Assembly (NCBI GenBank): GCA_913042265.1
Contig: CAJWKF010000002.1
Location: 1 to 64,000 of the forward strand
Direction of reading: 5' to 3'
Source of the DNA: an uncultured Gammaproteobacteria bacterium
Lineage (GTDB): Bacteria; Pseudomonadota; Gammaproteobacteria; Nitrosococcales; Methylophagaceae
DNA: 64,000 bases
The position numbers and the translations under genes were made by a program. Every line of letters starts with the position of its first letter. Position 1 is the first letter of the stretch. Positions 3,269 to 37,088 of this stretch are shown one piece after another. Below the pieces are notes generated by a model. That model was not told the DNA's origin. It was given only the letters and a program-made list of their open reading frames with translations, and did not search any database.

Positions 3269-3793
3269 ATGCCTCGTAGGTATTTAAAACATATAATGCC
3301 AGATCACAGGACGATGCGTGAGCACCCTCACTTGCAGCGTTTTGGACAGCGATTAGCAGAGCCAAAATTATGGCACCTTAACAGGCGATCAATTGCATTT
3401 GGTCTAGCGCTAGGTTTGTTCGTTGGTTTTATGCCTATTTTAGGCCAAATGTTCGTAGCGGCGGGGTTAGCAATTGTAATTCGAGTGAACCTACCCATAG
3501 CAGTTATGGCTGTTTGGATAACGAACCCCATTACAATGGGCCCTATTTACTTCATTGCCTACCAAATTGGTGCTGCAGTATTGGCAATGCCAGTTGCTGA
3601 GCAAACGTTCACTATGTCGTGGGAATGGTTCACACACGAGTTTATAGCTATTTGGCAGCCATTGATTTTAGGAAGCTTTGTTTTAGGCACTATTGCTGCG
3701 ATATTAGGTGTTTTATTTGTACGTATTTTCTGGCGAGTTATTGTGGTTAGAAATTGGTTGAAAAGGTACAAAAAAAAGGATGGGGCTTCATAG
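3269..3793 (+). CDS. DUF2062 domain-containing membrane protein
   Basis: This is a 174-residue inner-membrane protein of unknown role. It carries the family pattern from the first residue: a basic start (MPRRYLKHIMPDH), then a soluble PKLWHLNRRS segment, then hydrophobic stretches including ANLPI-like NLPIAVMAVWITNPITMGP. Three or so membrane segments and a basic C terminus (KRYKKKDG) follow. The start at 3269 is chosen because family members begin with this basic MPRR motif. The gene is convergent with lolD and overlaps its end by 6 bp. In Pseudomonas a DUF2062 gene lies beside the lol genes and comEC (recalled synteny), so the neighbourhood is conserved although no function is known. Confidence 0.88.
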   Translation: MPRRYLKHIMPDHRTMREHPHLQRFGQRLAEPKLWHLNRRSIAFGLALGLFVGFMPILGQMFVAAGLAIVIRVNLPIAVMAVWITNPITMGPIYFIAYQIGAAVLAMPVAEQTFTMSWEWFTHEFIAIWQPLILGSFVLGTIAAILGVLFVRIFWRVIVVRNWLKRYKKKDGAS

Positions 3794-4486
3794 CCCCATA
3801 CCTGTGGAGGTAGTAAGGTGACCATCTTTGAGTGTTAGTATTGTTTCCATTTGGCTAGCAAGCTCGATATCATGAGTGACAATAACTAATGCTGTCCTCA
3901 ATGATTCATTTAGTTCAAGGATAAGATCAAAGATACCTTGTGCTGTGCGGTGGTCTAAGTTTCCTGTAGGTTCATCTGCAAGAAGACAGTCTGGTTTAGT
4001 AATGAGAGCACGCGCAAGTGCCGCACGTTGCCGTTCCCCACCGGAGAGTTCGCTAGGTTTGTGAACCAATCGATGGCTTAAGCCGACTTTTATTAATAAA
4101 TCTTCGGCTTGTTGTTCAGCTTGTTTTGGTTTTGTACCTCCAATAATGAGTGGGATGGCCACATTTTCGACGGCACTAAACTCGGGTAGTAAGTGATGAA
4201 ATTGATATACAAAGCCTAGACTCTTGTTACGTAATTGGCTTAGAGTTTTAACAGAGAGTTTGTTAATATCCTGACCGTGAATTTTAATGCTTCCACTTGA
4301 AGGTTTATCAAGCCCACCAAGGAGATGTAATAAGGTACTTTTTCCTGAACCTGAACTACCAATAATAGCGATGCGGTCACCTTTTTGAACCGATAGGTTT
4401 ACATTACTGAGAACATTTGTTTTCAATTGACCATCGGCGAATTGTTTACTAGTGTTTTTACATTCGATGACGATAGAGTTAGTCAT
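3788..4486 (-). CDS. lolD: Lipoprotein-releasing system ATP-binding protein LolD
   Basis: This is the ATPase that drives release of outer-membrane lipoproteins from the inner membrane to LolA. It has 232 residues. Walker A is GSSGSGKSTLLHLLGGLD, the Q-loop is near FVYQFHHLLPEFSAVENV, the signature is LSGGERQRAALARAL, and Walker B is LLADEPTGNLD. The FxYQFHHLLPEF stretch is characteristic of LolD within the MacB/LolD/FtsE group. It overlaps the upstream permease gene by 8 bp, implying coupled translation, and its own 3' end overlaps the convergent DUF2062 gene by 6 bp. Confidence 0.94.
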   Translation of the reverse strand: MTNSIVIECKNTSKQFADGQLKTNVLSNVNLSVQKGDRIAIIGSSGSGKSTLLHLLGGLDKPSSGSIKIHGQDINKLSVKTLSQLRNKSLGFVYQFHHLLPEFSAVENVAIPLIIGGTKPKQAEQQAEDLLIKVGLSHRLVHKPSELSGGERQRAALARALITKPDCLLADEPTGNLDHRTAQGIFDLILELNESLRTALVIVTHDIELASQMETILTLKDGHLTTSTGMGL

Positions 4487-5726
4487 AGCGCAACGCCTCA
4501 GCCGGCTGAGTCTGTGCCGCCTTCCATGAAGGATAGATGGTGGAAATTAAGGAAAGAGCAAAAGCAGTTAGACCAATAGTAGTAACATCATCCCAATGTA
4601 AGTCAGAGGGTAGATTGCTGATGTAGTAGACATCAGCAGGAAGGAATTGGTAGCCCATAACAGTCTCTAGTGAGGCAATAATGTTTTCAATATTTAATGC
4701 TAAACTGACGCCCCCGATAACGCCTAAAAGCGTTCCAAATATACCGATTAATACACCTTGCACCATAAAGATAGCCATTATATCGCTGGGAGTCATACCT
4801 AGGGTTCTCAAAATGGCGATATCAGACTGTTTATCAGTGACCATCATGATGAGTGTTGAGACAATATTAAAAGCTGCAACAGCAACGATGAGTAGTAAGA
4901 TCACGAACATGACCGTTTTTTCTGTTTTTAGGGCACGAAAGAAATTAGCATGTTGGTATGTCCAGTCGACTGCACGATACTCAGGACCCAAATTTTTCAT
5001 AATGTTGTGAGTAATTTGAGGAGCTTGGAATACATCATCAAGCTTTAGTCTTAATCCAGTCACTTGGTCTGGGATACGAAATAGTTTAGCGGTATCCTCA
5101 ATGTTCATAATAGCTAAAGCACTGTCGTATTCATACATGCCAATTTCAAAAATACCGACCACATTTAGACGTTTTAACCGCGGAATAACACCAGCTGGTG
5201 TTGGATTGACATGAGGAGTTATTAAAGTGATTTTATCACCCGTACGGACACCCATAGCGCGAGCTAAATCATGGCCAAGAATTATGCCAAATCCACCGGG
5301 GTTTAGGTTGTTAAAGTTACCTTGAATAATATTTTCATGAATAGTAGAAACGCGAGGTTCTAGTGTTGGATCTATGCCACGTATGAGGGTACCTCTAACT
5401 CGGTTACCCTTGCTAAGCATTGCTTGCCCTTCAACAAAAGGTGCTGAATCTAGTAAATGGGGTTGGTGCTGTATTTGGCTTTGTAAGTTTTTCCAATCTG
5501 AGAGTGGACTGCCATTTCCGGTAATAAAGGCGTGTGAGGTCATACCTAAGATACGTTCGCGTAATTCTTTTTCAAAACCATTCATTACAGATAAAACTGT
5601 GATCAATGCTGCAACGCCCAATGCAACCCCAAACATTGAAGTTAGCGATATAAAGGAAATAAAATGATTTCGCCGTTTTGCACGCGTGTAACGTAAACCG
5701 ATATATACGCTTAATGGATTAAACAT
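4479..5726 (-). CDS. Lipoprotein-releasing system permease, LolC/LolE family (possibly LolF-type)
   Basis: This is the inner-membrane permease that works with LolD to extract lipoproteins. It has 415 residues. An N-terminal amphipathic and transmembrane segment (IGLRYTRAKRRNHFISFIS) precedes a MacB-type periplasmic domain. Three C-terminal membrane helices of the FtsX fold follow, ending in YPSWKAAQTQPAEALRYD. The periplasmic stretch NPTPAGVIPRLKRLNVVGIF resembles the LolC region that docks LolA. No second lolC/E gene is next to lolD here, whereas Pseudomonas has lolC-lolD-lolE. A single permease acting as a homodimer (LolF) is known from Francisella. Whether this genome has another copy elsewhere cannot be seen. 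Confidence 0.88.
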   Translation of the reverse strand: MFNPLSVYIGLRYTRAKRRNHFISFISLTSMFGVALGVAALITVLSVMNGFEKELRERILGMTSHAFITGNGSPLSDWKNLQSQIQHQPHLLDSAPFVEGQAMLSKGNRVRGTLIRGIDPTLEPRVSTIHENIIQGNFNNLNPGGFGIILGHDLARAMGVRTGDKITLITPHVNPTPAGVIPRLKRLNVVGIFEIGMYEYDSALAIMNIEDTAKLFRIPDQVTGLRLKLDDVFQAPQITHNIMKNLGPEYRAVDWTYQHANFFRALKTEKTVMFVILLLIVAVAAFNIVSTLIMMVTDKQSDIAILRTLGMTPSDIMAIFMVQGVLIGIFGTLLGVIGGVSLALNIENIIASLETVMGYQFLPADVYYISNLPSDLHWDDVTTIGLTAFALSLISTIYPSWKAAQTQPAEALRYD

Positions 5727-10572: not shown

Positions 10573-12870
10573 ATGAAGGAACCTTTTATCCAGCGATATA
10601 TCAGTTTTGTTATTACGCATCCATGGCGAATTTTTATCATGACTTTATTAGTGGTGATGAGTGCGGGGAGTGGTGGTCGCTTTATTGAGTTCACTAATGA
10701 TTACAGAGTGTTTTTCAGTGAAGAGAACCCTGAGCTGCAAGCTTTTGAAGAGATGCAGAACATTTATACTAAAACAGATAATGTCTTATTCGTTATAGCG
10801 CCAGAAGATAACAATGTTTTTAATTCCAGCACTCTAAATATGATTGCGGAATTAACAGAATTATCCTGGCAAATTCCTTACTCTACTCGTGTCGATTCGA
10901 TTACTAACTTCCAACATACTGTAGCAAAAGAGGATGATCTGTTAGTCGGAGATCTAGTTGATAGAAGAGCTACTTTGTCATTAAATGATATTTCTTATGT
11001 ACGTGAAGTTGCCTTAAATGAACCATTATTAGTTAATCGTTTGGTATCTGCATCTGGGCATGTAACAGGTGTGAATGTGACTATTCAGCTCCCCGGTATG
11101 TCATTAACTGAAGTCCCAGAAGTGGCTCAGTTTGCACGAGAGTTAAAGAGGACATTAGAGGCTAATTATCCTAATCATAAAATTTACATCACGGGTCTAG
11201 CGATGATGAATAATGCTTTTGGTGAGTCCTCTCAAAATGATATGACTTCTTTGGTTCCGATGATGTTTTTAACAATTATTGTCGTGCTGGGTATTCTGTT
11301 GCGTTCTTTTTCGGCAACTATTTCTTCAATAGTGATGATTTTCTTCACGATTATTTTTGCAATGGGATTGATGGGCTGGTTAGGCTGGAAATTAACACCA
11401 GCATCGGCATCGGCACCGACGATAATTATGACGATGGCTGTCGCCGATACGGTGCATTTATTAGTAACCTTCTTACATAACCTTCGTAAGGGCATGAACA
11501 AAGCCGATGCTATAGCGGATAGTTTACGTATCAACATACAGCCTATTTTTATAACAAGTGTCACGACTGCGATTGGTTTTTTAAGTATGAATTTTAGTGA
11601 TGTCCCACCTTTTCATGATTTGGGCAACGTGGTGGCAATAGGAGTGTTATTTGCATTTGTTCTTTCTGTGACTACTTTACCTGCGATGGTTATATTGATG
11701 CCAATGCGTATCAAGGTAAGAGAAGAACAAAAAAATGGTGTAATGAATTCTGTTGCCAATATTGTAATTGAACATCGTAAATTTCTTTTGCTTGTAATGG
11801 GATTAATAGCCATAGCTCTAATTGCTTTTTTACCTCAAAATAAACTAGATGATGGTTTTGTCGAATACTTTGACGAATCTGTTGATTTTCGGCAAGCGAC
11901 AGATTTTTCCAGTCAAAACTTGTCAGGAATTTATACTATTCAGTACTCATTAGATCAAGGTGGGAGTGGTGGTGTCAGCGAGCCAAAGTTCTTAGAAAAT
12001 GTTGAAATATTTTCCGAGTGGTTACGAGCGCAAGATGAAGTAATGCACGTGCAGACTATTACAGATACATTCAAACGATTGAATAAGAATATGCATGCTG
12101 ATGACCCTGATTTTTATCGTTTACCGGCCTCCAGAGAGCTGGCAGCGCAATATTTATTATTATATGAATTATCATTGCCTTATGGTTTAGACTTGAATGA
12201 TCAAATTGGTATTGATAAGTCACAAACACGTTTAATTATTACGCTTGAAAATCTATACACAGAAGAGATGTTAGGCCTAGAAAAGCGGATGTCAGACTGG
12301 CTGGATAGCAATATTGAGGATGTTAGTTATACTGTTGCGAGTCCGAGCTTGATGTTTGCACATATAGGTAAACGCAATGTAAACAGCATGTTGGCTGGGA
12401 CAACGCTGGCTTTAATTGTTATTTCATTTATCCTAATATTAGCTTTACGTTCAAGACGTATTGGTTTGATTAGTTTGGCACCGAATCTAATTCCTGCTGG
12501 AATGGCATTTGGCTTATGGGGACTAATGGTTGGGCAGGTTGGTTTGTCATTATCAGTTGTTGCAGGTATGACGTTAGGTATTGTAGTCGATGACACAGTC
12601 CATTTCTTAAGTAAGTATCTTCGAGCACGTCGTGAAAAAGGCATGGACGAAAAAGAGGCCGTACGCTATGCATTTAACACAGTTGGTGTTGCTCTATGGG
12701 TTACATCGCTAGTCCTAGTGATGGGTTTTTTGGTGTTAAGTCAGTCTCATTTCTCTCTTAACTCTGATATGGGTGCTATGGCTGCTATAACAATTGCTAT
12801 TGCTTTAATAATGGACTTTTTGTTTTTACCACCATTATTGATGAGATTAGAGGAAAAGCTAAATGTATAA
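10573..12870 (+). CDS. RND-superfamily (MMPL-type) exporter
   Basis: This 765-residue inner-membrane pump is built as two similar halves. Each half has a leading helix, a large periplasmic loop and a five-helix bundle. The first bundle has PTIIMTMAVADTVHLLV and the second GMTLGIVVDDTVHFLSKY; the acidic residues in these helices are typical of proton-coupled MMPL/RND pumps. At about 765 residues it is shorter than AcrB-type drug pumps (about 1040) and belongs with the lipid-type exporters. The ATG has AGGAAA upstream. It overlaps the next gene, a LolA-like protein, by 8 bp, so a lipidic or lipoprotein-like cargo is inferred. The actual substrate is not known. Confidence 0.88.
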   Translation: MKEPFIQRYISFVITHPWRIFIMTLLVVMSAGSGGRFIEFTNDYRVFFSEENPELQAFEEMQNIYTKTDNVLFVIAPEDNNVFNSSTLNMIAELTELSWQIPYSTRVDSITNFQHTVAKEDDLLVGDLVDRRATLSLNDISYVREVALNEPLLVNRLVSASGHVTGVNVTIQLPGMSLTEVPEVAQFARELKRTLEANYPNHKIYITGLAMMNNAFGESSQNDMTSLVPMMFLTIIVVLGILLRSFSATISSIVMIFFTIIFAMGLMGWLGWKLTPASASAPTIIMTMAVADTVHLLVTFLHNLRKGMNKADAIADSLRINIQPIFITSVTTAIGFLSMNFSDVPPFHDLGNVVAIGVLFAFVLSVTTLPAMVILMPMRIKVREEQKNGVMNSVANIVIEHRKFLLLVMGLIAIALIAFLPQNKLDDGFVEYFDESVDFRQATDFSSQNLSGIYTIQYSLDQGGSGGVSEPKFLENVEIFSEWLRAQDEVMHVQTITDTFKRLNKNMHADDPDFYRLPASRELAAQYLLLYELSLPYGLDLNDQIGIDKSQTRLIITLENLYTEEMLGLEKRMSDWLDSNIEDVSYTVASPSLMFAHIGKRNVNSMLAGTTLALIVISFILILALRSRRIGLISLAPNLIPAGMAFGLWGLMVGQVGLSLSVVAGMTLGIVVDDTVHFLSKYLRARREKGMDEKEAVRYAFNTVGVALWVTSLVLVMGFLVLSQSHFSLNSDMGAMAAITIAIALIMDFLFLPPLLMRLEEKLNV

Positions 12871-13639
12871 ATTTTTTATAATACTGATGTTGACGGTCAC
12901 ATCACTAGCCGCTGCTCAAACTCCAGAAGAAAAAGGTTATGCGATTGCCTTAGAAACGGACAACCGGGATAAGGGTTGGGAAGATAGTTCTGCTGCAATG
13001 AAGATGGTGTTGAGAAATCGACATGGACAGGAGAGCATACGTCAAATTCGCGTGGTTAATTTAGAAATGGAAAGTGATGGGGACAAGGGCCTTACTGTTT
13101 TTGATGAACCACGTGATATTAAGGGCACAGCTTTTTTGAGTTATTCACACGCTCTAGTGCCTGATGAACAGTGGATTTATTTACCGGCATTAAAAAGAGT
13201 GAAACGTATTTCATCTAGTAATAAATCTGGACCATTTATGGGTAGTGAATTTGCCTATGAAGATATTAGTTCGTTTGAGATCCCTAAGTATGATTATTTA
13301 TATTTAAGAGATGAAGTGTTTGAAGGTAATAATTGCTATGTACTCGAGCTACGTCCACAGTACCAATATTCTGGATATACCAAAAGCCATGTTTGGATAG
13401 ATAAGAAGGAATACCGTAACCAAAAAGTAGAGTATTACGACCGTAAAAATAGTTTATTAAAAGTCCAGCGTTTTACTGATTACCAACTGTATTTAGGTCA
13501 GTACTGGCGGGCACATACTATGACAATGGACAACAAACAAAATGGAAAGTCGACGACGTTATACTGGACCGATTTTAAGTTTAAAACTGGATTAACTAGT
13601 GCCGATTTCAAGAAGAATGACCTTAAACGTCAGCGTTAA
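12863..13639 (+). CDS. LolA-like outer-membrane lipoprotein-sorting family protein
   Basis: This 258-residue protein has a Sec signal peptide (KFFIILMLTVTSLAAAQ) and is predicted to be periplasmic. The mature part fits the COG2834 group, half-barrel proteins related to LolA: KGTAFLSYSH, then IYLPALKRVKRI, SGPFMGSEFAYEDIS, and strand-rich YVLELRPQ and KSHVWIDK. A second LolA-like protein in this window (30291) shares the KGT, YLP and MGS...D elements. GAGGAAAAG precedes its ATG inside the pump gene, and its 3' end overlaps the barrel gene. It probably carries a hydrophobic cargo between pump and barrel. It is not lolA itself. Confidence 0.85.
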   Translation: MYKFFIILMLTVTSLAAAQTPEEKGYAIALETDNRDKGWEDSSAAMKMVLRNRHGQESIRQIRVVNLEMESDGDKGLTVFDEPRDIKGTAFLSYSHALVPDEQWIYLPALKRVKRISSSNKSGPFMGSEFAYEDISSFEIPKYDYLYLRDEVFEGNNCYVLELRPQYQYSGYTKSHVWIDKKEYRNQKVEYYDRKNSLLKVQRFTDYQLYLGQYWRAHTMTMDNKQNGKSTTLYWTDFKFKTGLTSADFKKNDLKRQR

Positions 13640-14810
13640 AACCTTAGGTTGTTTAGGGCTGTTATATTGGCCTTTTAGTCATGCTCAAGCATACGAGTTG
13701 ACTGGGTATATATCTGGGGAACATCGGTACTCATTGAGTAATTCGCTCTTTTCTGAACCTGAACAACACGCATCCTCCGTGGCTTTTTCTCCAGAATTTT
13801 ACACGGAGTGGGATGAGGGTAGACAGAGTCTAATTATTTCGCCTTTCTTTCGTGTTGATACTCAAGATGTTGAGCGGACCCATTTGGACTTTAGGGAATT
13901 ACATTGGTTGTTAGTTCAAGATAGCTGGGAATTAAGAGTAGGTATTAGCAAAGTGTTTTGGGGTGTAACGGAATCTCAGCATTTAGTAGATGTGATCAAT
14001 CAGACAGATTTGGTTGAAAATAATGATACTGAAGATAAATTAGGTCAGCCCATGATTAACCTCAGCCTCTTTCAAAGCTGGGGTACTGTAGATTTATTTA
14101 TGATGCCATATTTCCGCGAGCGAACATATGTAGGGCTGAATGGGCGGCTTCGCTCGGCACTTGTAGTGGAAGAAAATTCAGCCAAATATGAATCAGGAGC
14201 GGGTCAGCGGCATCTTGATATTGCGGTCCGCTGGTCTCATAGTATAGGTGAATGGGATATAGGTTTATCGCATTTCTACGGCATTAATCGTGAACCATTG
14301 ATATTATTGAATAGCTCTCGTACAGCTTTAATTCCTTTTTATGAGACGATGAAGCAATCAGGATTAGATGTTCAATATACCTTTGAGTCTTGGCTATGGA
14401 AGCTGGAGACAATTCGTCGCGATACAAAATCTGATACTTTTACCGCGTTTACTGGGGGTGTGGAATACACATTTTACAATACCTTTGATAGTAATCTCGA
14501 TGTTGGTGTATTGGCCGAGTATTTGTTTGATGACAGAAATAGTGAGAGTTTAGCTTCTTTTGAAAATGATGGATTATTTGGCACACGGTTTACTTGGAAT
14601 GATGAGCAATCAAGTGAATTACTCTTTGGGTTAATTCATGACTTTTCAAGTAACGATGCTGGGTGGAGTGTTGAAGCCAGTCGTCGTATTGGCAATCGCT
14701 GGAAAGTATCGCTAGAAGCTAGATTTTATAATATTAAAGATAAAAATAGCGTGTTGTTCCCCCTGCGTAAAGATGACTATATACAGTTAGAGTTTATGCG
14801 ATACTTTTGA
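13617..14810 (+). CDS. Predicted outer-membrane beta-barrel protein of the RND cassette
   Basis: The protein has about 397 residues with a signal peptide ending SHAQA. Alternating amphipathic strands rich in Trp and Tyr follow, and a terminal aromatic residue (FMRYF) is typical of outer-membrane barrels. The track begins at a GTG (13599), but the ATG at 13617 gives a cleaner signal peptide. Either start lies within the LolA-like gene, overlapping it by 23 bp or more, so translation is probably coupled. I do not recognise a named family; RELHWLLVQDSWELRVGISK is its most distinctive stretch. Its place as the last gene in a pump/carrier/barrel set suggests the outer-membrane step of the same route. 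Confidence 0.75.
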   Translation: MTLNVSVKTLGCLGLLYWPFSHAQAYELTGYISGEHRYSLSNSLFSEPEQHASSVAFSPEFYTEWDEGRQSLIISPFFRVDTQDVERTHLDFRELHWLLVQDSWELRVGISKVFWGVTESQHLVDVINQTDLVENNDTEDKLGQPMINLSLFQSWGTVDLFMMPYFRERTYVGLNGRLRSALVVEENSAKYESGAGQRHLDIAVRWSHSIGEWDIGLSHFYGINREPLILLNSSRTALIPFYETMKQSGLDVQYTFESWLWKLETIRRDTKSDTFTAFTGGVEYTFYNTFDSNLDVGVLAEYLFDDRNSESLASFENDGLFGTRFTWNDEQSSELLFGLIHDFSSNDAGWSVEASRRIGNRWKVSLEARFYNIKDKNSVLFPLRKDDYIQLEFMRYF

Positions 14811-14860
14811 GTGATAAAACGAGTTTATTTAAACAGGCTTCATTATTTACTTTTCAGCAT

Positions 14861-16330
14861 TCACACATTGTTACGCCATTGATGACATGGATCATCAAAG
14901 ATACGATTAACTTCTTCTGGGCCCCATGTACCGGCTTTATAAGTATGAATGAAATCTTGCTCTTTTGACCATTTGTTAATGATGGGATCAACCGTTTTCC
15001 ATGCTAGGCTCACTTCATCAGCACGTAAGAATAAAGAACGATCACCAATGATTGCATCAAGGATTAAAGCTTCATAAGCATCAAGCTTGTGTTTACTATC
15101 TTCTGTTTCAATTGTTTCTAGACCAACAGTATGTGCCGACAATTCAAGTCCTGGTTCTTTGGCTTGTAGCTCAATACGAATAGTATTGTCTGGTTGTAAT
15201 CCCATCAGTATCCAGTTCGCATGACTGCCACCGATATCTGTATTTTTGAATAATTCTTGCGGTGGCTTTTTAAAGCGTATGGCAATTGTTGCACGTGAAT
15301 CGGGCATACATTTACCTGTCCGTAAGTAGAAAGGTACATCTTTCCAACGTGGGTTATCAATGTAGACTTTCATGGCAGCGTAAGTTTCAGTGACACTATT
15401 TTCTGGCGCGTCATCTTCTTCTAAGTAGCCTTTCATATGCTGGCCACCTACTATACCGGAAGCATATTGGCCTCTGAAGGCGTGGCTGTCGACCATACTC
15501 TCTGTGATAGGCCTAATAGCTTTAAGAACCTTTACTTTTTCATCGCGTAATGACTCATCATTAAGATCATCCGGAGCTTCCATTGCGACCAAAGTCATTA
15601 CTTGTAATAAATGACTTTGAATCATGTCACGTAAAGCGCCAGAGCCATCGTAATAACCAGCGCGCCCACCCACTCCTTGTTGTTCTGCATGTGTTATCTG
15701 GATGTGGTCGATATAATTACGGTTCCATAAAGGTTCTAGTAATAAGTTAGCGAAGCGGAAAACAAAAATGTTTTGTACAGTACCTTTACCTAAATAATGA
15801 TCGATACGATATGTTTGTTTTTCCGTGAAATTTTGAGCAATAGTTTGTTCTAGTTTTGCAGCACTTTTTTGATCATAACCGAATGGCTTTTCAACAACTA
15901 AGTGTCGCCAACCATCATCTTCTTTATTTAAACTTACAGCTGCTAATTGGTCACCGACCACACCAAATAAAGAGGGGCTAATAGAAAGATAGAACACGAT
16001 ATTATGTGAATAATCTCGATTAGGATCCTTTAGCTGAGCGCTGAGTTCCTGATAAGAACTACTTTCAGTCAAGTCGCATTTGAAGTAGTCAACTTTACTT
16101 AAAAAGCACTTTAGAGAATCATCATCAAGACCATTACGTGCTTTAAGTGATACGTATTCGGTGACTTTTTCATGCCATTGAGAGAGAGTAGTTTCTTGCC
16201 TGCCCATACAGATAATACGGGTGTCATCAGTGAGACGGTTTTCGATATTTAAGTGATAAAGTGCAGGGAGTAGTTTCTTTTTTGCCAAATCGCCGGTGGC
16301 ACCAAAGATGATAATTGTACAAGGCTGCAT
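14861..16330 (-). CDS. zwf: Glucose-6-phosphate 1-dehydrogenase
   Basis: Zwf oxidises glucose 6-phosphate to the lactone with NAD(P)+, feeding Pgl and the pentose phosphate pathway. At 489 residues it matches the E. coli enzyme. The dinucleotide site is [19 protein letters not shown], and VVEKPFGYD and [13 protein letters not shown] follow. The active-site Asp, His and Lys (D177, H178, K182) are present, but the next residue is Gly (codon GGT at 15784-15782) where the family signature DHYLGK-[EQK] expects a charged or amide residue. The gene is convergent with the barrel gene. No edd or eda is adjacent. Confidence 0.95.
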
Positions 16331-29963: not shown

Positions 29964-30006
29964 AATAATCATTTTACTGATTTAAAATTAAGAGTATGAT
30001 CATTAC

Positions 30007-30181
30007 GAGTTCTGCGGTGTTCGATAGCGACAAGTGTGTCTTGAGCCGATAAGCAATTGCTTCGGAAACTGATATTGAAATGGCGTGCAGGCCCGCAAGT
30101 CGGGAAGCCCAGGTTTCAATCGATGTATCCACTTGAACCTACATGGTTCGAGAACCAGTTCGTACCGGCATTGCGGGACTC
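30007..30181 (+). ncRNA. ssrS: 6S RNA (SsrS)
   Basis: 6S RNA mimics an open promoter and sequesters sigma-70 RNA polymerase in stationary phase. The location after zapA is the standard one. The 5' segment GAGTTCTGCGGTG and the 3' segment CATTGCGGGACTC pair over 13 bp using G-C, A-U and G-U pairs only, forming the closing stem. Inside are CTTGAGCCGATA and CACTTGAACCTACATGGTTCGAG, which match the conserved TGAGCCGATA and CCTTGAACC...GGTTCAAGG blocks of the E. coli RNA. The length, about 175-180 nt, fits (184 in E. coli). Exact ends are uncertain by a few bases. The fau (ygfA) gene that usually follows is absent. Confidence 0.9.
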
Positions 30182-30290
30182 TTTTCTTAGCTTTATTTCT
30201 TAAAAGCATCAAAATTAAGTATGAGTATTTCCCCCCAAGGCATTGTCTGTTTTAATGACGTATCTAATTACGCTATTTAAGGATAGATTG

Positions 30291-31061
30291 ATGTACAAAC
30301 GTGTACTTTATTACTCTGGTTTACTGCTTCTGTTGTTAGGAGTTAATCCTACTTATGCAGTGACAGAAGACAGTGTTAACCGTGTTAGAGTCTTGCTAGG
30401 TAAAGTAGATGATCTTTGGCGGGGCCAATCATCATATACCATCACTTCGATGCATGTTAAAACAGAACATTACGAGCGCACGATGAAGATGGAAGGTTGG
30501 TCCAAGGGTAAAGAAAAAACCTTGTTTCGAATTATGCTGCCGTTACGTGAGAAGGGCACCTCGACACTTAAGTCAGATAATCATATTTATACTTATCTGC
30601 CTAAGACCGACCGTACAATTAAACTCACAAGTGGAATGATGATGGGGTCTTGGATGGGTAGCCACTTAACCAATGATGATCTGGTTAAAGAAGCTCGCTT
30701 AGAAGAAGACTATACGGCAGAGATTAGTTTTGAAGGTATGCGTGATGGCCAAAACATTATTGAATTCTCGTTGGTTCCAAAGATAGATGCTGCAGTAGTT
30801 TGGGGTAAACTAAAGTTGATTATTTTAGCGGATAGTAACATTCCTCTTGTTGAATATTATTACGATGAGGATTTTGAATTGGCAAGGACAATTTGGTTTA
30901 GTGATATTCAACTATTAGCAGGCCGTCAGCGACCTGCAGTTCTAACTGTGATACCAGCAGATAAACCTGAGGAATTTACACAGTTCATATACAGACAGTT
31001 ATCACTGAATGTTGAGCTAGATGAGAGTTTGTTTTCCTTATCGAGCTTAAAAAAGCGCTGA
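30291..31061 (+). CDS. LolA-like outer-membrane lipoprotein-sorting family protein of the ABC cassette
   Basis: From the ATG at 30291 (AAGGA 7 nt upstream) the 256-residue protein has a signal peptide, MYKRVLYYSGLLLLLLGVNP to TYA, and is predicted periplasmic. The mature part is COG2834-type: MKMEGWSKGKEKTLFRI, EKGTSTLKSDNHIYTYLPKT, MMMGSWMGSHLTNDDLVKE, and a LFSL end. It shares KGT, YLP and MGS...DD elements with the LolA-like protein at 12863. The track start at 30243 only adds 16 residues before a natural signal peptide. It is followed at 22 bp by two permease genes, suggesting it receives or delivers their cargo. Confidence 0.87.
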   Translation: MYKRVLYYSGLLLLLLGVNPTYAVTEDSVNRVRVLLGKVDDLWRGQSSYTITSMHVKTEHYERTMKMEGWSKGKEKTLFRIMLPLREKGTSTLKSDNHIYTYLPKTDRTIKLTSGMMMGSWMGSHLTNDDLVKEARLEEDYTAEISFEGMRDGQNIIEFSLVPKIDAAVVWGKLKLIILADSNIPLVEYYYDEDFELARTIWFSDIQLLAGRQRPAVLTVIPADKPEEFTQFIYRQLSLNVELDESLFSLSSLKKR

Positions 31062-31083
31062 GTGTTCAGCTGAAAGTACTGCT

Positions 31084-32307
31084 ATGAATCTAATTATACT
31101 GGCCTCTCGAAATGTTTTTCGTCATCGTCATCGTACGGTTGTGACGACATTAGCGATGGCTTTTGCTTGTGCAATGATGATTGTTTTTGCCGCATTGATG
31201 GATGGGTTTTCTATCGGCAGTGAGCATAATGTGGTGTCGATGAACACGGGTGATATTCAAATTCATATGCCAGGATATCGTGATGAACCAGATATTTACA
31301 GTTTAATTAAGAATGCTGACCAACTATTAGAACAATTTAGAGAAGAAGAGTTTTATGCTTCAAAGCGATTGTTTGCTTTTGGTTTGATGGCCAGTGACTT
31401 AGGTTCATCTGGTGTTCAACTGCGTGGAGTTGATTTAGTGTATGAACCGACTGTGACAGAAATTGACCAACACATCATGACGGGGGACTGGTTAAATTCA
31501 GTGGATCAACATGGTGTGGTGATTGGAAAAAAGCTTTCTAAAGTACTAGATGTGGGCTTAGGCGATGAGTTAGTATTTATAGGGCAAACTGCCGATGGTT
31601 ATATGGCAAATGATAGCTTCAAAGTTAAGGGTATTTTGAAGTCAGTATCACCCGCGATTGATAATGCTGGCGTCTTTATGAGTAATGCCATGTTAAGTGA
31701 GTTGATTGCTTTGCCAGAGGGTGCACATGAATTAGTTCTAATGAGAATGGATAGAACAGGTGATTTAACGTCGAAGACAGCTGGGCTTAGAACATCCCTA
31801 GGAAGTGGTTTAGAAGTTATGAATTGGCAGCAACTCATGCCTATTATCAACCGTTTTTTAGAGACAGCACACATTCAAACCTTGATTATGATGATTTTCA
31901 CTTATATTGCTGTAGCGTCAGTGGTATTGAATGCGATGTTGATGAGTGTGTTTGAGCGAATTCGTGAGTTTGGCATTATGAAAGCAATTGGGATTAAACC
32001 CAGGGAGTTAGTATTGCTTATTTATACAGAAATGTTTATTCAAACATTCTTGGCTGCACTCTTAGCCATACTGACTGGGTGTAGCTTGTCGTGGTATTTC
32101 CAAGAAAGGGGACTTGATATGTCCTCTTTAGCAGAAGAAATTTCTTTTGCGGGTATTGCCTTCGATCCAATTTGGTACGCAGTTTTAACAGTTAATTCGA
32201 TACTAATACCTGTGCTCTTTTTATTTGTGGTCGCTGCGATAGCGGTGATCTACCCTGCCGCTAAAGTGGCTATCATCAGGCCTGTTGATGCTATTCATCA
32301 TCAATAG
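31084..32307 (+). CDS. ABC transporter permease, FtsX/MacB-type (first of two)
   Basis: This 407-residue inner-membrane permease has one N-terminal helix after RNVFRHRHRTVVTTLAMAFA, a periplasmic MacB-like domain, and three C-terminal helices of the FtsX fold. These include FERIREFGIMKAIGIKPREL and end AKVAIIRPVDAIHHQ. The layout is that of LolC/LolE-type permeases, which extract lipids or lipoproteins sideways from the membrane. It probably forms a heterodimer with the next gene's product and uses the ATPase encoded two genes downstream. The substrate is unknown. Confidence 0.88.
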   Translation: MNLIILASRNVFRHRHRTVVTTLAMAFACAMMIVFAALMDGFSIGSEHNVVSMNTGDIQIHMPGYRDEPDIYSLIKNADQLLEQFREEEFYASKRLFAFGLMASDLGSSGVQLRGVDLVYEPTVTEIDQHIMTGDWLNSVDQHGVVIGKKLSKVLDVGLGDELVFIGQTADGYMANDSFKVKGILKSVSPAIDNAGVFMSNAMLSELIALPEGAHELVLMRMDRTGDLTSKTAGLRTSLGSGLEVMNWQQLMPIINRFLETAHIQTLIMMIFTYIAVASVVLNAMLMSVFERIREFGIMKAIGIKPRELVLLIYTEMFIQTFLAALLAILTGCSLSWYFQERGLDMSSLAEEISFAGIAFDPIWYAVLTVNSILIPVLFLFVVAAIAVIYPAAKVAIIRPVDAIHHQ

Positions 32308-32322
32308 TGAGAATAGCTGATT

Positions 32323-33561
32323 ATGAAACTCAATACTTTGGCTTGGCGAAACTTGTGGCGACATAAAAGGAGGACGTTAATTACGGCGTCGTCTATTGCT
32401 TTTGGTGTATTACTAGCCGTCACTTTTACAGGTGCTGGTGATTATTTTCATACAAGAATGATAGATGCTGGAGCCAATATGGGTATGGGTCACATTACGA
32501 TTGCAGCACAAGATTATAACCGTGCACCAAGTAGTCAAAAGCCTATTAAAGGATCAAATACCTTACAGGTACTTATAGCAGATTTGCCAGAAGTGACATC
32601 AGTGGTAGCTCGTATACAGGGTCAGGCAATGTTTGCAAGTGCAAGGAAAAGTGTTGGGGGGACTTTTATTGCCATTGATCCTTCACAAGAGAGCGCAAAC
32701 AATAACTTGTTTATTGGGTCCTTAATAGAAGGTGCAATGCTTAGTCAAACTGCTGGGAAAGGAATTGTAATGGGTGTAGACCTTGTCCGTAAATTAAAGC
32801 TTAATTTAGGAAAAAAAGTTGTCTACACCACCACTGACATTAATGGCGATATTGTCAGCGCTGTTGCCCGTGTTAGTGGTATTTTCAGAACTGGAGTGGC
32901 TGAAGTGGATGGAGGCATGGCATTATTACCAATACAAAGTGTTCAAAAGGTCTTAGGCTATGCGTCAGATGAAGTAAGCCTTATTGCTATTAGTTTAGGC
33001 GACCAGAGACTTAGTCATGCTTTGCGAGATAAGATGCAAGGCCAGCCGGAATTTGAACATGTTGAAGTGCTGAATTGGCAGCAAACGCAGCCTGATTTGG
33101 CCGGGATGATCGCTGTTGACAAAAGTGCTAACCGAATTAGTCAGTTAATGATTTCTCTACTGATTGCTGCAGGTATTTTGAATACGATGTTGATGAGTGT
33201 GCTGGAGAGAAGTCGAGAGTTTGGGGTGATGATGGCTTTAGGAATGTCACCACGTGGTTTATTTAGCTTAGTAATATTAGAATCCTTCTGGCTTGCTGTT
33301 GTTGGTCTGATTATTGGCATTATCATAACAATTCCGTGGTACCTGCATATGGCCGAAACGGGTATCGACTTAACATCGGCTTATGGCGATGACTTTAGCT
33401 TTGGTGGTGTCTTGCTAGATACAGTTTTTAAAATTCGGTTATTTAAAGAAAGTATCATTGTCATTTTGATTGGACTATTTGGTCTGGCATTACTATCGGG
33501 TGTTTACCCTGCATGGCGAGCAGGTCGAATTCCACCGGTCGAAAGTTTAAAAGAATTATGA
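32323..33561 (+). CDS. ABC transporter permease, FtsX/MacB-type (second of two)
   Basis: This 412-residue permease is paralogous to the preceding one. It opens LAWRNLWRHKRRTLITASS, contains the periplasmic domain, then LERSREFGVMMALGMSPRGL and ends SGVYPAWRAGRIPPVESLKEL. The aligned positions (RNxxRHxxRT and E-R-x-REFG-x-M-x-A-x-G) show the pair arose by duplication, as in the LolC/LolE pair. It starts 15 bp after its partner and its stop overlaps the ATPase start (ATGA). Confidence 0.88.
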   Translation: MKLNTLAWRNLWRHKRRTLITASSIAFGVLLAVTFTGAGDYFHTRMIDAGANMGMGHITIAAQDYNRAPSSQKPIKGSNTLQVLIADLPEVTSVVARIQGQAMFASARKSVGGTFIAIDPSQESANNNLFIGSLIEGAMLSQTAGKGIVMGVDLVRKLKLNLGKKVVYTTTDINGDIVSAVARVSGIFRTGVAEVDGGMALLPIQSVQKVLGYASDEVSLIAISLGDQRLSHALRDKMQGQPEFEHVEVLNWQQTQPDLAGMIAVDKSANRISQLMISLLIAAGILNTMLMSVLERSREFGVMMALGMSPRGLFSLVILESFWLAVVGLIIGIIITIPWYLHMAETGIDLTSAYGDDFSFGGVLLDTVFKIRLFKESIIVILIGLFGLALLSGVYPAWRAGRIPPVESLKEL

Positions 33562-34247
33562 ATAAAATAGTCGAATTACGAGGCTTAGATAAACATTACC
33601 AGCAAGGTGAATTGCAGGTAAAAGCTATAGACAACTTGTCTTTAACCATAGAAAAAGGAGACTTTGCAGCATTATGTGGGCCCTCAGGCTCAGGAAAAAC
33701 TAGCATTCTTAATTTAATAGGTGGTTTAGATTCAGCCTCTTCTGGAAAAGTATTGTTGGAGGGGGTTGATTTGTCAGCATTGTCAAATGGTGACCTAGCT
33801 GAGAAACGAAAAAACCGAGTTGGCTTTGTTTTTCAATCTTATAATTTAATTCCTGTGATGACGGCTTACGAAAATGCAGCATTTGTGTTGGAACTACAAA
33901 ATGTTGAGCCTGCTTTGATAAGGGCAAAAGTAATGAAAGCTTTAGCGGATGTTGGACTAGCAGGAATGGAAAATAGGCGGCCAGATCAAATGTCGGGTGG
34001 GCAACAACAACGAGTGGCCATTGCCCGTGCGATTGTAACCAGTCCAGCCATCGTTCTAGCTGATGAACCGACTGCGAATGTCGATTCTAAAACAGCAGAA
34101 TTGTTATTGGATTTAATGGAGAAATTGAACCGGGAACAAGGTGTGACATTCCTCTTTTCTACGCATGACCAGCATGTGATGGACAGAGCTAAAAGAATCA
34201 TTCATATTATTGATGGCCAAGTTGAATCAGATGAACAAAAATTATAA
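33558..34247 (+). CDS. ABC transporter ATP-binding protein, LolD/MacB subfamily
   Basis: From the ATG at 33558, which overlaps the permease stop, it has 229 residues; the track's earlier start lies inside the permease gene. Walker A is CGPSGSGKTSILNLIGGLD, the signature is MSGGQQQRVAIARAIV, Walker B is IVLADEPTANVD and the H-loop is FSTHD. Its Q-loop region VGFVFQSYNLIPVMTAYEN is the common MacB/LolD-group form, and unlike lolD at 3788 it lacks the FHHLLPEF wording. It probably powers the two adjacent permeases. Confidence 0.9.
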   Translation: MNKIVELRGLDKHYQQGELQVKAIDNLSLTIEKGDFAALCGPSGSGKTSILNLIGGLDSASSGKVLLEGVDLSALSNGDLAEKRKNRVGFVFQSYNLIPVMTAYENAAFVLELQNVEPALIRAKVMKALADVGLAGMENRRPDQMSGGQQQRVAIARAIVTSPAIVLADEPTANVDSKTAELLLDLMEKLNREQGVTFLFSTHDQHVMDRAKRIIHIIDGQVESDEQKL

Positions 34248-35476
34248 TGAACTATACTTTTCTAATGCGACTATTGCTATTATTTGCTGTTCTAGTTCCA
34301 ACAACATCACAAGCTTTTTATGAGTGGCAAGAAGAAGGGCTAGAAATAGAGTTACGAGGTTTCGTTCGTGGCATCGGCCTAGCTGCTAAGAATCCCAGTG
34401 ATAACATCTTATTCGAACATGATAGAGTTTTAGCGAGCGGTCTATTTGGTCGGTTGATGCTAGATATCTCTATGCCCAGTATGAGTGCAGAGATGCACCT
34501 TGTTCAAAGTGTATTAGCTGATAAATTACGCACAGGTGGAAGCCGCTTCAATGTGATTAGTGACGCCGAGCGCAGTGATGGTTTGCACTGGAATTATGAC
34601 GAAGGTCATGCTGACTTGGTGGTTGATCGCTTGAATGTGCAGTATCAGAGTAATGACTTAAGGCTAAAAGTTGGCAGGCAACCCATTAATTTAGCTACAA
34701 CATTTTATTTCACTCCAAATGACTTCTTCGCCCCTTTTTCTGCAGAAGCATTTTTTAGAACTTATAAACAGAGTGTTGATTCGGCACGTATAGATTGGCA
34801 ATGGAGTAATGACTCTTCATTGTCATTGATAGCGGTCATGGACTATAAACTAGACCTCAGCCAGCCAACAGGATGGGAAACATCTCCTGACTGGGCAGAA
34901 ACAGCTTATCTTTCCCGAATATCAACTTTGAGCGAGTATTTTGAAATAGGCTTAATAGTAGCTACCGTGTCAAAGGATGAGATTATTGGCTTTGATTTTC
35001 AGGGAGAAGTATCTGACTTGTTTGGTTTACGGGGTGAGGGACATTTTCGCTTTACTGATAAAGCTAATACTAAGCGAGATTCTAAGTTTTCCCTAGCGAT
35101 TGATAAACGTTGGCAAAATACTTTGACACTTCGATTAGAACATTTTTATCAACGTTCCGGTGCTAAGGATAGTGATAAATATCAAGTTTTAGTCCCAGAG
35201 GATAGCAACAATGGATATTTGGCCCGAAATTACACTGTGATCGGGAGTAGTTATGAATTTAGCCCTTTATGGCAGGGTGATGCTGTTTACTTATTTAACC
35301 ATCAGGATACCTCGAAGCTATTAGCATTGTATTCATCGTATGTATTATCAGATGAATCTGAATTATCTATTGGTATAAACATTCCAATAGGCAAGGAGCC
35401 AGAGTTTGGTCGGTTAAAAACTGAATTTGGGAGCTTCTCTCAATCACTGACGGTGGAATACCGGGTTTATTTCTAA
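34247..35476 (+). CDS. Predicted outer-membrane beta-barrel protein of the ABC cassette
   Basis: The 409-residue protein has a signal peptide ending TTSQA. Amphipathic strands follow, and the end TVEYRVYF is typical of an outer-membrane barrel. Recognisable porin-like stretches are LRLKVGRQPINLATTFYFTP and FRTYKQSVDSARIDW. Its ATG overlaps the ATPase stop by one base, so it belongs to the same transcript. Like the barrel at 13617 it ends a carrier/pump/barrel set, but the two barrels show no obvious sequence identity by eye. I cannot assign a named family. Confidence 0.75.
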   Translation: MNYTFLMRLLLLFAVLVPTTSQAFYEWQEEGLEIELRGFVRGIGLAAKNPSDNILFEHDRVLASGLFGRLMLDISMPSMSAEMHLVQSVLADKLRTGGSRFNVISDAERSDGLHWNYDEGHADLVVDRLNVQYQSNDLRLKVGRQPINLATTFYFTPNDFFAPFSAEAFFRTYKQSVDSARIDWQWSNDSSLSLIAVMDYKLDLSQPTGWETSPDWAETAYLSRISTLSEYFEIGLIVATVSKDEIIGFDFQGEVSDLFGLRGEGHFRFTDKANTKRDSKFSLAIDKRWQNTLTLRLEHFYQRSGAKDSDKYQVLVPEDSNNGYLARNYTVIGSSYEFSPLWQGDAVYLFNHQDTSKLLALYSSYVLSDESELSIGINIPIGKEPEFGRLKTEFGSFSQSLTVEYRVYF

Positions 35477-35812: not shown

Positions 35813-35845
35813 AAGCCCTAACTCTCATTACTTAATTAGGTTTTT
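35813..35845. terminator. Possible bidirectional terminator between the CPXCG gene and the tandem paralogues
   Basis: CCTAA and TTAGG form a 5-bp stem with a long loop, flanked by AAA on the left and TTTTT on the right. Either strand would therefore end in a short T-rich run. It lies in the gap between convergent genes. The stem is weak, so the call is tentative. Confidence 0.35.
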
Positions 35846-36245
35846 ATGTAACGTGACGCACCTCAACAGCTACATCGAAGTGTTCTTGAGCATAGCTTTG
35901 CAACCAAGCCAGTTCAATGTCGGGAGAGGCTTTATCTTTTGCGTGGTAATATGATTGCATAAAAACCTCATCGCTTTCAGTCAACCAAGCCTCAGTTCTG
36001 GTTTGAACGTCGACTGAGTCTTGACGATAAACTTCTTCAAATACAGCGTCGACAATGCTGGCAAAATCTTTTTCCGTAAGGCCATTTTCTTCAGCATAAC
36101 CTCGGCAAGTTCCTAAAATTGCAGCGGTCACATACCGATCTTTTTGCATGGGAATAGGTACGTTATCGAAGATGCTTTTAAGTGGTTGAAAGCAGTCTGA
36201 AAATGCTTGTTTTAGTTTGTTTTTATGCTTCATTATTTCAAACAT
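35844..36245 (-). CDS. Hypothetical protein, tandem family member 3
   Basis: This 133-residue soluble protein is the third of three head-to-tail paralogues. From the ATG at 36245 it starts MFEIMKHK, matching the MF starts of its two siblings, with GGGA 7 nt upstream; the track starts 4 codons earlier. Shared positions are L-x-Q-A-F-x-x-C-x-x-P, NVPIPMQ, AILGTCRGYA, FEEVYRQDS, VQTRTEAWL and a final L-x-WL...F. It is predicted mostly helical, with no signal, membrane segment or known catalytic motif. I do not recognise the family. Confidence 0.75.
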   Translation of the reverse strand: MFEIMKHKNKLKQAFSDCFQPLKSIFDNVPIPMQKDRYVTAAILGTCRGYAEENGLTEKDFASIVDAVFEEVYRQDSVDVQTRTEAWLTESDEVFMQSYYHAKDKASPDIELAWLQSYAQEHFDVAVEVRHVT

Positions 36246-36272
36246 AATATTTCCCATTAAAATTAGAATAAT

Positions 36273-36674
36273 TTATAGTTTTTTACCTAGTGTACTGGCT
36301 TTTTCAAAATTCATTTGGACATGTTGGCTAAGCCAATCTAACTTTAGTTCAAGTTTACTAACAGATTTAGCGTGATAGTACGCTTCCATAAAGTCCTTGT
36401 TTTCTTCGTTGAGCCAAATTGAGGCCTTGGACTGCATGTCGAGTGATTCACTACGAAATACTTCCTCAAAAGCATTATCGATGAGCTTGTTGACAACACT
36501 TTCTTTAAGTTTTTGCTTGATGGCATAGCCGCGGCATGTGCCAAGGATCGCACCAGAAATATATGGGCTTTTACGCATATCTGGGTGGACATTCCCTAAA
36601 TCACTTCTTATGGGATCTAAGCAATCAGAGAAAGCCTGTAAAAGTATCGGTTTGTGTATCGCTGCTGAAAACAT
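36273..36674 (-). CDS. Hypothetical protein, tandem family member 2
   Basis: This 133-residue protein shares its whole length with the flanking paralogues. Its AILGTCRGYA is identical to member 3, and QAFSDCLDP, FEEVFRSES, MQSKASIWL and AYYHAK also align. The NVPIPMQ segment is altered to NVHPDMR. It starts at the ATG at 36674, 9 bp after member 1, and member 3 starts 27 bp after its stop, so all three are probably on one transcript. Function is unknown. Confidence 0.75.
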   Translation of the reverse strand: MFSAAIHKPILLQAFSDCLDPIRSDLGNVHPDMRKSPYISGAILGTCRGYAIKQKLKESVVNKLIDNAFEEVFRSESLDMQSKASIWLNEENKDFMEAYYHAKSVSKLELKLDWLSQHVQMNFEKASTLGKKL

Positions 36675-36683
36675 TCTAATAGT

Positions 36684-37088
36684 CTATAACATGAGGCCAG
36701 TGGCGGGTTTAAAATTTTCTTTGGCAAAAGCAGTCAACCAGCGCAAGTTAAGATCTGCGTTAGTTTGAGCGCGCGCATTTTCATAGGCCTTAATAAATTG
36801 GGTATTGTCTTCATTTTTCCAAGCTTCAACGCGATTTTGAACATTCATGGATTCGAGTCGATATATTTCCTCAAAAATAGAGTCAGCTATTAGAGCTATA
36901 TCACCGGGTTTTGTGACGTTCTGAGATACAGCATAAGTTTCACAGACAGCTAAAATTGAAGCATTAATTGCTGGGTCGCTTTGCATTGGAATTGGAACAT
37001 TGCCTAATTGGTCCATGACGGGCCAAAAACAGGCTTCAAATGCCTCACTCAGTTTCCTTTTGTGCTTAGTAATGCCGAATCCAAACAT
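36684..37088 (-). CDS. Hypothetical protein, tandem family member 1
   Basis: This 134-residue protein is the first of the three paralogues on the minus strand, with AGAGG 8 nt before its ATG. It starts MFGFGITKHKRKLSEAFEAC and keeps NVPIPMQ, SILAVCETYA, FEEIYRLES, VQNRVEAWK and LRWL. It diverges most from the other two in the GTCRGYA segment, where member 2 and member 3 are identical, suggesting members 2 and 3 are the more recent duplicates. The upstream gap to arfB is 112 bp. Function is unknown. Confidence 0.75.
   Translation of the reverse strand: MFGFGITKHKRKLSEAFEACFWPVMDQLGNVPIPMQSDPAINASILAVCETYAVSQNVTKPGDIALIADSIFEEIYRLESMNVQNRVEAWKNEDNTQFIKAYENARAQTNADLNLRWLTAFAKENFKPATGLML

Follow-up and report, generated by a model that had tools for sequence, protein, structure and literature searches.

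Five partly overlapping open reading frames, all on the plus strand, occupy positions 30291-35476 of the window (the whole stretch of 64,000 nucleotides analysed here), where the first-pass annotation had also placed them. They encode a LolA-like carrier, two permeases designated PermA and PermB, an ABC ATPase and an outer-membrane barrel (Table 1). The cassette is situated directly downstream of zapA and the 6S RNA gene; the 6S RNA is a neighbour marking the site and not a part of the machine. The likely start of the carrier is the ATG at 30291, the mechanically called frame opening at TTG 30243, and that of the ATPase is the ATG at 33558, the mechanical frame opening at 33513. The ATPase start overlaps the stop codon of PermB as ATGA, and the barrel ATG overlaps the stop codon of the ATPase as TAATG, an arrangement indicative of an operon with translational coupling. 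The assembly of the source genome comprises 1.18 Mb and is incomplete (84%); its relatives place it, provisionally, near Methylophagaceae. Adjoining the cassette on the minus strand are three tandem small ORFs of 133-137 aa that look paralogous (35844-37088), and a congener (L030) contains one more copy of this ORF type.

Table 1. Window coordinates of the five cassette genes and the neighbouring RNA gene.
Feature	Position	Strand	Basis
6S/SsrS RNA	30006..30183	+	Rfam RF00013, 89.7 bits vs gathering score 46.4
LolA-like periplasmic carrier, PF17131	30291..31061	+	Pfam, AF2, Foldseek
PermA, type VII (FtsX/MacB_PCD) permease	31084..32307	+	Pfam
PermB, type VII permease, PermA paralogue	32323..33561	+	Pfam
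LolD-like ABC ATPase	33558..34247	+	ABC_tran; start read from sequence
Outer-membrane barrel	34247..35476	+	AF2, Foldseek; in no Pfam/NCBIfam family

Both permeases contain FtsX and MacB_PCD domains (Pfam), and with about 26% identity they are paralogues, as expected from the duplicated pair that the first-pass annotation had recognised in them. Their best scores are obtained with lolCE models, the equivalog model giving 78.8 bits for PermA and 120.3 bits for PermB, both under its cut-off of 362.45, against 536.8 for the true LolC/E encoded at 4479. The ATPase matches ABC_tran (4e-34, Pfam) and scores 210.8 bits with the LolD equivalog model, under the cut-off of 307.75, compared with 333 bits for the true LolD at 3788-4486. 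Judged by its sequence, the cassette ATPase is not LolD, and the distinction previously drawn between the two proteins holds. The other canonical Lol proteins are encoded elsewhere in the genome: LolA, the sole PF03548 match of the genome, on contig C55, and LolB on contig C6. In an alignment with the LolC/E of the window, PermA has a conserved hairpin where LolC bears the Hook, the element that recruits LolA, but the Pro-rich motif of the Hook is absent. The true LolD is adjoined by just one LolC/E-type permease gene (3788-5726), as in LolF-type systems.

The carrier matches PF17131 (LolA_like) with 135.1 bits and an E-value of 2.8e-39, the Pfam gathering cut-off being 30, and does not match the LolA family PF03548 in Pfam. 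By eye, its N-terminus resembles a Sec signal peptide and has no lipobox. The AF2 model of the carrier (pLDDT 85.3) indicates that its fold is that of the LolA superfamily: the top Foldseek matches are the DUF1329/LolA_like structures 4z48, 3buu, 3bk5 and 9tp6, followed at lower TM by LolA and LolB. The highest conservation is found in residues 113-140, which include the least confidently modelled part of the protein and probably form a flexible lid. One of the matched structures, the experimentally studied Porphyromonas gingivalis LolA3 (PDB 9tp6), is related to the carrier by both sequence and fold. LolA3 lacks the diagnostic arginine of LolA and leucine of LolB and binds LolB no more than weakly (PMC13103446), which suggests that a member of this carrier family need not carry lipoproteins. 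An apparent 1056-aa LolA fusion in another genome (G378) was set aside, as its N-terminal part seems to be another gene traversed by the open reading frame.

Profile searches placed every cassette protein but the barrel, which belongs to no Pfam or NCBIfam family. None of 45 barrel members exceeds any Pfam cut-off or matches DUF1302, the Omp85 family was not found among them, and a search of solved structures with the barrel sequence returned no significant match. By eye, the protein has a Sec signal peptide-like N-terminus and a C-terminal Phe. Its AF2 model (pLDDT 85.6, pTM 0.80) has 18 long strands, counted on the DSSP string, and resembles porin-type channels in Foldseek (chitoporin, Occ channels and AlgE, with E about 5e-12). 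The TM-scores of these matches reach 0.59 at an rmsd around 6-9 A, so that the class of the barrel is clear and its detail is not. Conservation is highest in residues 146-176, the loop that joins strands 5 and 6; it is modelled partly with low confidence and is placed like the L3 loop of porins. The window contains a second system, at 10573-14810, composed of an MMPL/RND pump, a PF17131 LolA-like protein and a barrel, which many congeners keep. The LolA-like proteins of the two systems are related (7.3e-7), and profile comparison detects no relation between their barrels (E 0.094).

The composition of the cassette raises the question of a second lipoprotein pathway, where the ABC complex and the carrier would serve certain lipoproteins, which the barrel would insert or surface-expose instead of LolB, the lipoprotein that acts as the outer-membrane acceptor in the canonical Lol system. 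The Lol plan is likewise that of a type VII ABC transporter combined with a LolA fold, and the affinity of the permeases to lolCE models and the hairpin of PermA would fit such a role. Possible lipoprotein export has also been suggested by the authors of a study of the Borrelia BBJ23-29 system (PMC13078400). However, the ATPase and both permeases miss the Lol cut-offs, the genome encodes LolA, LolB, LolD and LolC/E in addition, the hairpin is without the motif of the Hook, and the barrel is of the porin type rather than Omp85 or LptD. Together with the properties of LolA3, these observations make a lipoprotein pathway unlikely.

The five genes are conserved together. The barrel is present in 20 of 95 nearby genomes, and most congeners keep the five-gene order, as do members of two further families of Gammaproteobacteria. 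In two congeners the other four genes are absent from the site, where a barrel remnant alone follows zapA (L037, 3948-4481; L040, 3809-3967), which fits a joint loss of these four genes. When one genome was scanned for each species, 468 relatives of the carrier emerged, of which the best 80 were fetched; going by the titles of their records, these represent Gamma- and Zetaproteobacteria, Desulfobacterota, Nitrospirota and Nitrospinota. Of the 58 fetched relatives whose sequence extends far enough downstream, 50 have all five genes, in an identical order in each of the 50, and 37 of these complete cassettes lie outside the close relatives of the window (in Gamma- and Zetaproteobacteria, Desulfobacterota and Nitrospirota). 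An order shared by 50 of 50 relatives is far beyond chance, and the five genes are a real unit. This bears out the proposal of a second machine that is Lol-like without being Lol and is equipped with a carrier of its own and a dedicated barrel. Five relatives with enough sequence have no adjacent ATPase, and two (L082 and L120) have no adjacent barrel; in L082, a TonB-dependent-receptor-like protein (13526-15673) follows the ATPase at the position expected for the barrel. Of twenty more diverged cassettes, most retain the same components; in some, the permeases are fused or ATPase and permeases are ordered differently, and a few have no recognisable barrel. A TPR-like protein is inserted between PermB and the ATPase in two relatives (L106, 4113-4868; L108, 12266-13042).

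Carrier and barrel also co-occur at the level of genomes. Among 370 gammaproteobacterial genomes, a sample rather than a census and all at least 90% complete except that of the window (84%), 31 encode both proteins, 10 the carrier only, one the barrel only and 328 neither (Fisher p 2.5e-35, with genomes treated as independent despite their kinship). The two genes are located on the same contig a few kilobases apart in 28 of the 31 genomes and on different contigs in three, and nearly every carrier in this survey is adjoined by permeases. Mirror-tree correlations among the five genes range from 0.71 to 0.91 and were equalled in none of 999 permutations, although shared genome descent contributes to them. 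The dN/dS ratios against a close congener are 0.085-0.131 for all five genes, which are under purifying selection. A plasmid collection yielded three weak records with no annotation at the matched site. The lack of a known family for the barrel might suggest an unrelated porin among chance neighbours, but with homologous barrels adjoining the cassette in several phyla and co-occurring with the carrier, such an explanation can be practically discounted. The conservation of the barrel with the cassette also answers the objection, raised in the first-pass annotation, that it could be a porin not conserved with the other genes.

Neighbouring genes give no pointer to the cargo: apart from signalling proteins and lineage-specific genes, nothing recurs near the cassette, and no biosynthetic or catabolic genes recur beside it in the neighbourhoods of its relatives. 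The missing catabolic genes speak against a reverse flow or a balancing of the membranes, by which the barrel would take a hydrophobic nutrient or a mislocalised lipid inward and the carrier would pass it to the ABC complex. Inward transport would agree with the likeness of the barrel to substrate-uptake porins and with the receptor-like protein in its place in L082, but none of the type VII ABC systems characterised in E. coli is an importer (PMC12646458), and we regard this direction as improbable. An exporter of peptides or drugs of the MacB type with an unusual outer-membrane porin appears highly improbable. The MacB_PCD domains of both permeases are compatible with it, as is a divergent TetR-like regulator upstream of the cassette in Mariprofundus (L058). 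On the other hand, no HlyD/MacA-type adaptor or TolC duct was found in the cassette or recurring beside its relatives, which weakens the earlier objection that the permeases might act in this way; the scores with the MacB model are far under the cut-off. MacAB-TolC has the same MacB-type periplasmic and FtsX domains, but its ATPase is fused into MacB, whereas that of the cassette is encoded by a separate gene, and it has no role for a LolA fold such as that of the carrier.

We consider it moderately likely that the cassette exports a hydrophobic or lipid-like molecule across the envelope. An oily molecule would be lifted out of the inner membrane, and the periplasmic domains of the permeases would provide the docking site of the soluble carrier, whose groove the cargo would enter. 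The loaded carrier would then traverse the periplasm and dock on the dedicated 18-stranded barrel, and the cargo would pass into or through the outer membrane. We infer the export direction, the hydrophobic nature of the cargo and the hand-over from carrier to barrel from the parts of the system, as a pump, a soluble carrier with a lipid-binding fold and a dedicated barrel together imply that a lipid or hydrophobe is moved to or through the outer membrane. A porin-type barrel whose model seems to include a constricting loop is not an obvious conduit for very greasy molecules. By analogy, published systems point to the movement of lipids or hydrophobes as well. Deletion of AmeABCD in Castellaniella defragrans reduces monoterpene tolerance (PMC6394551), an MMPL-LolA protein and an adjacent porin increase in Thalassolituus grown on the n-C28 alkane (PMC6304351), export of non-polar ligands has been proposed for Borrelia BBJ23-29 on computational grounds (PMC13078400), and YbbAP-TesA, also a type VII system, has been proposed to extract hydrophobic compounds on behalf of a periplasmic partner (PMC12646458). 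Tentatively, the cassette may represent a widespread and so far undescribed class of trans-envelope exporters: a heterodimeric type VII ABC transporter would load a soluble LolA-type carrier, and this would deliver directly to a dedicated 18-stranded porin-type barrel, with no need of a LolB, an adaptor-duct assembly or an Lpt-type bridge.

The cassette is close to known export systems, yet distinct from each. It shares with LolABCDE a type VII ABC ATPase, two LolC/E-like permeases and a LolA-fold carrier, but fails the curated Lol models and ends in a barrel without a LolB. Borrelia BBJ23-29 likewise combines a type VII ABC transporter with a LolA-like protein and an outer-membrane barrel of its own (PMC13078400); this barrel, however, belongs to Omp85, the proposed permease is homodimeric where the cassette has two paralogous permeases, and there are two TPR proteins, of which the cassette has a counterpart inside two relatives only. 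AmeABCD unites a LolA-superfamily periplasmic protein, an outer-membrane protein and an inner-membrane pump in one cassette (PMC6394551), but the pump is of the RND (HAE3) type instead of ABC components, the outer-membrane protein belongs to DUF1302 and the carrier to DUF1329, and there is an additional periplasmic protein; it is the RND system of the window that resembles it. YbbAP-TesA differs in its hydrolase partner, ten-helix permease and absence of a barrel. LolA3 is a protein of Bacteroidota, and the accessible part of its description mentions no ABC-barrel cassette (PMC13103446). No published description of an ABC-carrier-porin cassette was found in a search that left aside preprints and most subscription journals. 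The first-pass annotation had considered the outer-membrane step to be new, which stands in part: the barrel family and the combination of components were not found described, but AmeABCD and BBJ23-29 are precedents for a dedicated outer-membrane protein in such a system.

The passage of lipids and hydrophobes other than LPS and lipoproteins across the periplasm is still poorly understood, and the cassette is a compact, conserved set holding all the parts that such a lipid route would need. It occurs in Mariprofundus ferrooxydans PV-1, and Vibrio campbellii has a diverged version; the presence of so compact a cassette in named organisms makes the hand-over from carrier to barrel directly testable. 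In several records of the Desulfobacterota type (L088, L097, L101, L103, L110 and L114), the genes upstream of the carrier include those for a multihaem protein resembling NapC/NirT and for a MerR-like regulator.
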